DNA from: Deltaproteobacteria bacterium
Lineage (GTDB): Bacteria; Desulfobacterota; Desulfomonilia; UBA1062
Reading direction: 5' to 3'
Assembly (NCBI GenBank): GCA_018434685.1
Contig: JAHDOV010000003.1
Coordinates: forward strand, 216,302 to 280,301
DNA: 64,000 nt
In this document: positions 19,450-30,670 of the stretch, piece by piece
Numbering within the stretch: position 1 is the stretch's first letter
Layout of the letters: each line of letters opens with the position of its first letter
Notes under the pieces: generated by a model
The model's database searches: none
What the model saw: the letters and a program-made list of their open reading frames with translations, nothing else
Told to the model about the DNA's origin: nothing
Position numbers and translations under genes: made by a program

Positions 19450-19537
19450 GCCGGAGTGGTGGAATTGGTAGACGCGTCGGACTCAAAATCCGAAGAGCCT
19501 TGCGCTCGTGGGGGTTCGATTCCCCCCTCCGGCACCA
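19450..19537 (+). tRNA. tRNA-Leu (CAA)
   Basis: 88 bases including an encoded CCA. Acceptor GCCGGAG pairs with CTCCGGC; the anticodon stem TCGGA/TCCGA holds the loop CTCAAAA, anticodon CAA. It has the long variable arm of class II tRNAs and a GGGGGTTCGATTCCCCC T-arm. A weak TTGCAA-N17-TAATAC lies 12 bases upstream; read-through from glnA is also possible. Its last 21 bases recur at 19744-19764. Confidence 0.95.
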
Positions 19538-19764
19538 TGCTTCGCCCTTTGGGCTATGCACGGCACGCCATGAGAAGAAAAAGCCTTTCCCGCGATGCGG
19601 GAAGGGCTTTTTCTTCTCATGGCTTTGGGGGAAACCGAAGCGGAGCGAGCGCCGCCGGTGGCGGAAGAGCGGACAGGAAGTCCGCGTCAGCGAGCATAGG
19701 GGAGCCTACGCAGGAGCGTCCAGGACGGACGTGACGTAGGAGGCGATTCCCCCCTCCGGCACCA
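19517..19764 (+). repeat. Direct repeat of the tRNA-Leu 3' end bounding a structured 227-base element
   Basis: Bases 19517-19537 (T-loop 3' part, T-stem, acceptor strand and CCA) recur perfectly at 19744-19764. The DNA between has no open gene but many stems: CCGCC-GGT-GGCGG, GCGGAC-AGGAA-GTCCGC, CCTACG/CGTAGG enclosing CGTCC/GGACG, and GGGGGAA (19627-19633) that can pair with TTCCCCC in the repeated tail (19747-19753), closing the whole as a multi-branched fold. It could be a scar of an element integrated at the tRNA, or a small mobile non-coding element carrying a tRNA-like tail. No integrase is nearby. Confidence 0.7.
19567..19623. terminator. 27-base-pair hairpin, bidirectional terminator after tRNA-Leu
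   Basis: Arms 19567-19593 and 19597-19623 match over 27 bases with a single G-T type mismatch and a 3-base GAT loop. The inner part AAAAAGCC...GGGCTTTTT is a bidirectional rho-independent terminator; the outer GCCATGAGAAG arms lengthen the stem beyond what a terminator needs. Confidence 0.75.
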
Positions 19765-28896: not shown

Positions 28897-30360
28897 ATGG
28901 ATATGGTTTTTGATACAGTATCGATCGTAAAGGCCGGGCAGTTTCTCGGTGCCGGGATCAGCATAGGGTTCGGTGCCATAGGCGCGGCTTTCGGTGAAGG
29001 TCTTGTCGGCGGTTTTGCAAACTGTTCCATAGGCCGGCGCATCGGCATGGCCTCGCCTTATACGAGGACAATGCTCATCGGCCAGGCCGTTGCAGAGACG
29101 TCGGGCATATTCGCCCTGATGGTTTCGGTACTGCTCGTCTTCGGAGATTTCTCCGCCAACGGTGTGTGTGCCTGGACCGCTACACTCAGCGCCGGGATCT
29201 GCATGGGGCTCGGTGCGTTGGGATCCGGCGTAGGTGCTGGATATCCGGCACTGGAAGCCATCTGGGGTGCGGCGAGGCAGCCTGCTGTCGGCGGACAGAT
29301 GACCACGACAATGCTGATCGGGCAGGCGGTCTGCCAGACGCCGGCAATCTTCTCTCTGGTCATTGCCTTCATGCTGATGTTCAGGAACTGTGTCGGGCTT
29401 GATGTCTGGCCGTACGGGGCATCGCTCCTGGGCGCTGGAATCGCTATGGGCTTCGGGGCCATCGGTTCGGGATGGGGCGGAGGCCAGGCTGGCGGTGCCG
29501 CATGCGAGGGGGCTGCACGGCAGCCGCATCTGAGAGGCCCTCTCACCACGCTCATGCTGGTCGGCCAGGCGGTTGCCCAGACCCCTGCCATATTCGCCCT
29601 GCTGGTGGCGATTATGCTCATCAGTATCGGTCCGACCGAGGGTACCATACTCACCAGTGCCGCTGTCCTGGGCGCGGGTATTTCCGTCGGCTTCGGCGCG
29701 ATCGGCTCCGGAATGGGCAACGGCATAACCGCCGAAGGGGCATGTAACGCAATCAGCAGAGAATCCAGCACCACGAAGGATATGCTGACCTTCATGCTCG
29801 TGGGACAGGCCGTCGGTCAGACCCCGGTGATCTTTTCCCTGGTTGTAGCACTCATGCTCATGTTCATCACCTTCAACATCCCGGCCACCCTGGTGGGTTT
29901 CTGCGCGCTGCTGGCAGCGGGCATCTCCATGGGCTTGGGTGCGATCGGTTCGGGCTGGGGCAACGGTGCAACCGGTGCAGCTGCCTGCAAGGCCGTGGCT
30001 ATGGAGCCTACTCAGAGACCCGTGATCCTGACGCTCATGCTCGTGGGCCAGGCCGTGGCACAGACGCCTGCAATATTTGCGCTGCTCGTTGCGTTCATCC
30101 TCATGTTTGGCAACTATACAGGTCCGGTAACGCTTCCCGCTGCCATGGCACTGCTCGCCGCAGGCATATCCATGGGCTTCGGTGCGATCGGACCTGGTAT
30201 CGGTAACGGCATAACCGCTGCAGCGGCCTGTGAGGCTGTCGGAAACAGGCCGGAGGAAAGAGGACTGTATATGAGGACCATGCTGGTGGCCCAGGCTGTT
30301 GCCCAGTCAACGGCAATCTATGCCTTGGTAATCGCGTTTGTGCTCATATTCGTTGTGTAG
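28897..30360 (+). CDS. Six-hairpin fused ATP synthase c subunit with one ion-binding glutamate
   Basis: 487 residues made of six c-subunit hairpins of about 80 residues: 1-87, 88-167, 168-249, 250-329, 330-409 and 410-487, so 12 membrane helices. Hairpin 1 keeps both acids of a two-carboxylate Na+ site (E34 in helix 1; E67-T68-S69 in helix 2). In hairpins 2-6 helix 1 has A114, G195, N275, N356 and N437 instead, and the essential helix-2 acid is Gln (Q147, Q228, Q308, Q389, Q470), usually as QTPAIF. The ring would thus lose five of six sites per copy. Known multi-hairpin rotors occur in V-type, archaeal A-type and the Acetobacterium hybrid enzyme. The frame is intact and the repeats have diverged at DNA level, arguing for long-term selection. 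The ribosome site (AGCAGGAT) is weak. Confidence 0.93.
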   Translation: MDMVFDTVSIVKAGQFLGAGISIGFGAIGAAFGEGLVGGFANCSIGRRIGMASPYTRTMLIGQAVAETSGIFALMVSVLLVFGDFSANGVCAWTATLSAGICMGLGALGSGVGAGYPALEAIWGAARQPAVGGQMTTTMLIGQAVCQTPAIFSLVIAFMLMFRNCVGLDVWPYGASLLGAGIAMGFGAIGSGWGGGQAGGAACEGAARQPHLRGPLTTLMLVGQAVAQTPAIFALLVAIMLISIGPTEGTILTSAAVLGAGISVGFGAIGSGMGNGITAEGACNAISRESSTTKDMLTFMLVGQAVGQTPVIFSLVVALMLMFITFNIPATLVGFCALLAAGISMGLGAIGSGWGNGATGAAACKAVAMEPTQRPVILTLMLVGQAVAQTPAIFALLVAFILMFGNYTGPVTLPAAMALLAAGISMGFGAIGPGIGNGITAAAACEAVGNRPEERGLYMRTMLVAQAVAQSTAIYALVIAFVLIFVV

Positions 30361-30379
30361 CAAGGGTAATAAAAAATAA

Positions 30380-30670
<291 letters not shown>

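Follow-up and report, generated by a model that had tools for sequence, protein, structure and literature searches.

Why the 3′ end of an intact tRNA gene should appear a second time a short way downstream is the question raised by tRNA-Leu(CAA) in the stretch of DNA analysed here, 64,000 nucleotides from a contig of a Deltaproteobacteria bacterium (Desulfobacterota; Desulfomonilia; UBA1062), hereafter called the window. The last 21 bases of the gene (CGATTCCCCCCTCCGGCACCA) recur exactly, CCA included, at a spacing of 227 bp (Table 1), just as the earlier note on this DNA had observed, and going by base composition some 0.0006 exact 21-mer pairs would be expected by chance across the whole window. 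The sole other exact 21-mer repeat in the window is a direct one at 30280-30620 (at least 24 bp exact, spacing 310). The earlier note offered three readings of the segment: a mini-element inserted at the tRNA, the scar of a lost island, or an RNA with a tRNA-like 3′ end. Sequence comparison identifies it as one copy of a structured repeat of roughly 105-110 nt, previously unnamed, which is found, in dozens of bacteria that reduce sulfur or metals, behind tRNA genes of at least 16 kinds. On balance, we consider this repeat to be a non-autonomous, non-coding mobile element that is copied and pasted between tRNA-type genes, the evidence for insertion being stronger than that for any one way in which it might come about.

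The tRNA-Leu(CAA) locus

Table 1. Parts of the element and its host gene in the window (positions are those of the window).
Feature	Position	Strand	Basis
tRNA-Leu(CAA), intact, CCA encoded, host gene of the element	19450..19537	+	ARAGORN; Rfam tRNA 59.8 bits
Tail 1, from C56 in the T-loop to CCA; left-hand repeat of the duplication	19517..19537	+	exact 21-bp direct repeat
34-bp module tgcttcgccctttgggctatgcacggcacgccat, after tail 1	19538..19571	+	comparison of L009, L012, L014, L016; blastn matches
D1, intrinsic-terminator-like hairpin of the tRNA trailer, 27-bp arms, T-rich end	19567..19623	+	inverted repeat I1, 96% complementary
IRL, T-loop/T-stem of the tRNA in inverted copy, forming the 5′ strand of P1	19627..19639	+	family comparison
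Conserved core	19640..19743	+	repeat family; covariation
Core helix H1	19652-19664
Core helix H2	19669-19685
Core helix P3	19705-19709 with 19739-19743
Core helix H4	19716-19732
Tail 2, the tRNA-Leu 3′ end repeated directly from T-loop C56 to CCA; first bases are the 3′ strand of P1	19744..19764	+	exact repeat; same feature in relatives

The DNA between the two tails folds, as had been claimed, with z = -6.8 for 19517-19764, a value that comes mostly from the 27-bp terminator hairpin; core plus tail only (19624-19764) give z = -2.1. Beyond the hairpin, the segment that leads up to the second tail is GC-rich. The segment homologous to the rest of the family spans 19627-19752, and the earlier note had remarked neither that its first 13 bases are an inverted copy of the T-arm nor that the core belongs to a repeat family. 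The window copy is mutated in this inverted end, which reads GGGGGAAACCGAA where the family form is GGGGAATCGAA; within P1 it has GGGGAAACCG in place of GGGGAATCG.

The left trailer of the window copy is about 90 nt long between tRNA and left end, the extra 34-bp module included, and has no recognisable homology to the right flank. In the other copies of the same genome and in that of a same-genus genome (L009, L012, L014, L016), the module follows tail 2 instead of tail 1, and it therefore apparently belongs to the tandem unit; its placement looks as if units had been permuted via a tandem stage. No hairpin comparable to D1 follows tRNA-Leu(CAA) in the element-free loci read in the window's family.

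A repeat family with a patchy distribution

The earlier note had proposed searching the genome for the segment next to other tRNAs, and the search yielded four copies (on C47, which holds the window, and on C58, C46 and C32), those on C46 and C32 lying behind tRNA-Ala(CGC) and tRNA-Ala(GGC), respectively. One further copy is found in the same-genus genome, at the orthologous tRNA-Leu(CAA), and three in another member of the window's family. A covariance model, also proposed in that note, was built from 11 aligned copies and recovered the family in 71 of 136 genomes of the Geothermobacter order, with 1-14 copies per genome; the filters of this search were stricter and weak matches were lost, so that a genome without a match may still contain the element. 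In GTDB, a pattern scan gave matches in Desulfuromonadales-type genomes, all of this same arrangement, including Geothermobacter hydrogeniphilus, together with chance matches in unrelated bacteria. The distribution is patchy: carriers number 3 of the 24 members of the window's family and 3 of the 42 genomes of its class. Many genomes in the sample are incomplete assemblies, and copies share descent.

Plasmid, phage and IMG/VR collections contain nothing similar to the element, and an origin in them was rejected on these grounds. In Rfam 15, tRNA is the sole family above its gathering threshold in the element region of the window, and the element has no match at four further loci (L115, L132, L133, L126). 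Neither the literature searched nor Rfam describes the element. Genome papers on Geobacter and Pelobacter mention multicopy sequences, in passages that do not describe it, and an unremarked listing in their supplements is therefore possible.

Ends that follow the host tRNA

Among 106 distinct copies read in context, 87 lie directly behind a tRNA gene of 16 anticodon types in all, on the same strand, and those without an adjacent tRNA are mostly second or third tandem units. Less usual contexts include tmRNA (L085, by ARAGORN, and L121, by a tmRNA-like 3′ end), tRNA-Sec (L111) and a tRNA cut by the contig end (L063); no tRNA is found at L061, L062 and L077, and at L126 what is probably a group II intron separates the second unit from its tRNA. 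Trailer lengths from tRNA to left end fall into two classes, 16-28 and 42-60 nt, the longer class being the one with a terminator.

At its left end the element has the reverse complement of the adjacent tRNA, beginning at T54 and typically 10-15 nt long; at its right end it repeats the tRNA directly, from C56 to CCA or beyond. More specifically, the left 9-mer matches the adjacent T-loop exactly in 81 of 86 copies, across eight T-loop variants (among them TTCGAATCC, TTCGAGTCT, TTCGATTCC, TTCGATCCC, TTCAAATCC and TTCGAGCCC), while the right 19 bases have 17.7 matches to their own tRNA versus 12.4 to other tRNAs. These comparisons show both ends of the element to be rewritten for each target tRNA.

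The cores behave differently from the ends. In one genome (G131), those behind tRNA-Ser(TGA), tRNA-Ser(GGA) and tRNA-Ser(GCT) are identical except at 1-2 of 105 nt, the first two differing at a single position in spite of different ends and trailers; in the tRNA-Ser(TGA) copy, left end, tail and trailer all differ from those of the other two and are specific to that tRNA, and the other two have a common tail and most of the trailer in common. Over all pairs, the mean core distance is 0.168 for different tRNAs of one genome, 0.192 for the same tRNA in different genomes and 0.236 for unrelated pairs. Cores behind different tRNAs of one genome are thus slightly closer to one another than those behind the same tRNA in different genomes, and clearly closer than unrelated pairs, while their ends are tRNA-specific, from which it follows that the core moves, or is converted, between tRNA genes; that cores group partly by tRNA type indicates that vertical inheritance contributes as well.

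A conserved fold on the tRNA-sense strand

The alignments show the element to consist of a core of about 105 nt with a conserved four-helix fold, enclosed by an outer helix. In a MAFFT alignment that was not fitted to structure, the five-helix model (P1, H1, H2, P3, H4) has 96.4% of cells paired, and covariation is 0.355 versus 0.112 for shuffled alignments and at most 0.059 for slid helices, a control that leans towards the model because the helices were drawn from the same sequences. In 105 distinct rows fitted to the model, an alignment that itself leans towards that model, covariation is 0.399 versus 0.122 shuffled, with double changes in 21 of the 30 pairs. The pairing that had been proposed between GGGGGAA (19627-19633) and TTCCCCC of the second tail is part of the outermost helix, P1, which covaries across the family; the suggestion that it mimics a T-stem did not survive, the fold being multi-branched.

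Outside P1, G-U cells number 64 and A-C cells 7, although the cells are non-independent and any p-value is nominal; the excess of G-U indicates that the folding strand is the tRNA-sense strand, with RNA as the likely form and single-stranded DNA as a possible one. Of the idea of an RNA with a tRNA-like 3′ end, what holds is a covarying sense-strand fold that ends in a tRNA tail; the tail itself forms no tRNA-like domain.

Insertion, target duplication and tandem units

Empty and filled sites can be compared at the tRNA-Ser(GGA)-ffs locus, where about 40-60 bp separate the tRNA from the ffs (4.5S RNA) gene in element-free genomes; a filled relative has this native flank after tail 2. Left trailers resemble the flank after tail 2 in many copies (identity over the first 5 nt of 0.72 versus 0.42 shuffled), and whole terminators are duplicated at L093, L112, L150, L123 and L086, which argues that insertion duplicates the segment from T-loop to trailer. 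As judged from such flanks, the target duplication measures about 33-75 bp and is fixed at the T55/C56 junction and variable at the trailer end; to the left stays the intact tRNA with its 3′ tail and trailer, and to the right comes a second tail, which is often accompanied by some of the trailer. Against duplication stand some filled sites (G179), where the left trailer poorly resembles the native flank, which would also fit an element-borne trailer. The evidence for a circular element with its own trailer versus target duplication is therefore mixed, with duplication favoured.

Units can also follow one another. Behind tRNA-Ser(GGA) in G168 there is a tandem triple of near-identical units of 154-155 bp, and downstream of about 18 of 103 copies lies a further unit that breaks off within the first 9-41 nt of its core. 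Taken together, the empty sites, the duplication of flanks and the near-identity of cores at different tRNAs show, on the level of sequence, that the element inserts and spreads, which bears out the mini-element reading of the earlier note. That note had named single-copy sequence with no covariation as what would speak against such a reading; the family is multi-copy and covaries.

At L137 (G113:C34) and L123 (G098), tRNA-Glu(TTC) or tRNA-Leu(CAG) occurs twice together with its element, about 2.3 kb apart, with a DUF4143-like ATPase or a hydroxylamine-reductase-like gene (both named by eye) in between. Larger, cargo-bearing versions of the element were considered for these core pairs and rejected, as each is two tRNA-plus-element copies with ordinary genes between them. 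Possibly the element encourages tRNA genes to duplicate locally.

Proposed mechanism and candidate enzymes

In the mechanism that we propose for copy-and-paste movement, the sense strand would act as RNA or single-stranded DNA, and its T-arm ends would anneal to the conserved T-arm of a new tRNA gene, thereby priming copying of the core. Copying would begin at C56, giving a native tail on the right, and the inverted left end would probably be made when the T-arm of the target itself is copied by snap-back or template switching. The duplicated tRNA 3′ end would keep the host tRNA intact, and the enzyme would be supplied in trans or by host replication and repair. A bolder version would make the element a protein-free, SINE-like bacterial parasite that, as structured RNA or single-stranded DNA, inserts copies of itself into the T-loops of many tRNA, tmRNA and tRNA-Sec genes, rewriting both ends for each host and sparing the tRNA by duplicating its 3′ end; this we put forward tentatively, as a possibility that we would sooner doubt than accept.

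Enzymes that might mobilise the element were compared with its presence in the 136 genomes, in tests that ignore phylogeny and genome incompleteness. Integron integrase (TIGR02249, 1e-30) is present in 45 of 71 carriers versus 29 of 65 non-carriers (odds ratio 2.1, p 0.04) and was rejected because the association is weak and 26 of the 71 carriers have none. Reverse transcriptase (odds ratio 1.5, p 0.30) was rejected since 38 of the 71 carriers, including G113 with 14 copies, the richest genome, are without an RVT_1 match. Y1 transposase, found in 116 of the 136 genomes, is nearly ubiquitous in the order (odds ratio 2.3, p 0.14) and was tentatively set aside; it is absent from 7 of the 71 carriers including G136 (7 copies), where genome incompleteness may play a part. 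At G135:C17:23739-24478, a gene for a Y1 (IS200-like) transposase lies about 250 bp downstream of one element copy, the only such neighbour noticed.

No group II intron RNA was matched in the elements, and one separate intron lies beside one of them, at L126 (G099:C1:3454700-3456500). Here the match (40.0 bits, equal to its gathering score) falls at a terminator, between the lost tRNA-Leu(CAG) context and the second element copy, and one of 12 identical-scoring RVT_1 genes of G099 adjoins the element. The insert is probably a terminator-targeting group II intron that split the tRNA-element pair.

Alternative explanations

A duplicated tRNA 3′ tail is the usual footprint of integration at tRNA sites, and the element has this tail and leaves the left tRNA intact, as tRNA-site islands and prophages do. 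Decayed remains of such an island or prophage at tRNA-Leu are nevertheless hardly credible as an explanation. Unlike islands, the unit is gene-less and about 150-200 bp long, serves at least 16 anticodon types and has an inverted T-arm copy at its left; no island genes or integrase remnants are found within it, and one short core of conserved structure recurs at many tRNAs in many genomes, with no similarity in the plasmid, phage and IMG/VR collections. The multi-copy, covarying family with no gene in its unit thus refutes, as a sufficient explanation, the lost-island scar that the earlier note had allowed for. Site-specific recombination is a more serious contender, although we regard it as quite unlikely. 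The moving unit would be a cassette of T-loop half-tail, trailer and folded attC-like site, integrated at the T-loop by a tyrosine recombinase that would act on it as a folded single strand, as in integrons. The topology does recall an integron array, with tandem units at one anchor and a folded site whose outer helix pairs its left end with the 5′ end of the cassette, the latter supplying the end sequence; at the G179 filled site, moreover, the native flank comes after tail 2 and the trailer seems to belong to the element. However, the anchor here is a tRNA T-loop, the unit has no gene, and the strand that folds is the top one, into a multi-branched structure and not an attC hairpin. The R box GTTRRRY and its G^TT crossover are absent from the copies read, in which the right junction is GTGGG/CGANTCC at T55/C56, in many copies the trailer has its duplicate in the right flank, and the association with IntI is the weak one given above.

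A resident functional RNA, that is, a trailer-encoded regulator (for instance a control of tRNA maturation or a protein sponge) co-evolving with T-arms, would account for the strong covariation on the sense strand, and since its left end complements the T-arm, it could compete with the folding of that arm. In the window's genus, AGGA hairpin loops recall CsrA sites, and CsrA is present. Yet the family is patchy (3 of 24 members of the window's family), orthologous sites are empty and the host tRNA differs between genomes, which makes a resident RNA as improbable as a cassette. Its CsrA-sponge form (of the CsrB/RsmY type) was dropped because the AGGA loops are replaced in Desulfuromonads (GTGAT, CACGA); the closest sRNA in Rfam is RsmY, at 10.2 bits and E 3.5. 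An origin that needs no dedicated enzyme, by template switching between T-arms during replication or repair, overlaps with copy-and-paste movement; taken separately it is unlikely, if less so than either of these. Snap-back copying would give the inverted end, and microhomology at CGAATCC would import the core and return to the native tail. This would explain tRNA-specific ends, duplicated tail and trailer, tandem units, the 3′-truncated following units and the missing enzyme association, but would leave the covarying fold of the core and its lineage-limited spread unexplained.

Comparison with known systems

Like REP/REPIN sequences with their RAYT transposases, the element is short, non-coding, structured, chromosomal and multi-copy, and presumably moved in trans. 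It differs from them in its multi-branched fold of 30 pairs, with no simple palindrome bearing a conserved tetranucleotide, in its strict position at tRNAs, in ends rewritten for each target, in a long and variable target duplication and seemingly in showing no association with the presence of Y1 transposase. Inverted ends that vary with the host tRNA, and a duplication of variable length, set it apart from MITEs, whose terminal inverted repeats are constant and whose target duplication has a fixed length.

Family 2 casposons, as in Aciduliprofundum boonei, insert at tRNA 3′ ends and duplicate the target, their casposase reading a TCAAATC leader motif (PMC6614799). This motif appears to resemble the T-loop/T-stem of tRNA. 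Casposons, however, are kilobase elements with Cas1 and PolB, constant terminal repeats and duplications of 14-15 bp, whereas the present element is gene-less and its duplications are longer and variable. In eukaryotes, Dada transposons and those non-LTR elements that are aimed at multicopy RNA genes are reported to use tRNA and other such genes as safe targets (PMC8869645, PMC3706591); they are protein-coding and have constant ends, and no reverse transcriptase tracks the bacterial element. The element therefore departs in at least one defining property from each known family examined.

Significance

No docking sites for mobile DNA in bacteria are better known than tRNA genes, and in the cases known to us the element brings an integrase and has a fixed attachment sequence. 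If the reading is true, a structured repeat that has no gene, serves 16 or more tRNA types and re-tailors its ends to each would be a new way of moving DNA. It would also account for the fragments of tRNA 3′ ends that lie behind tRNA genes in these bacteria, and it makes testable the idea that, in bacteria, RNA- or single-stranded-DNA-templated spread may take place without a dedicated linked enzyme.
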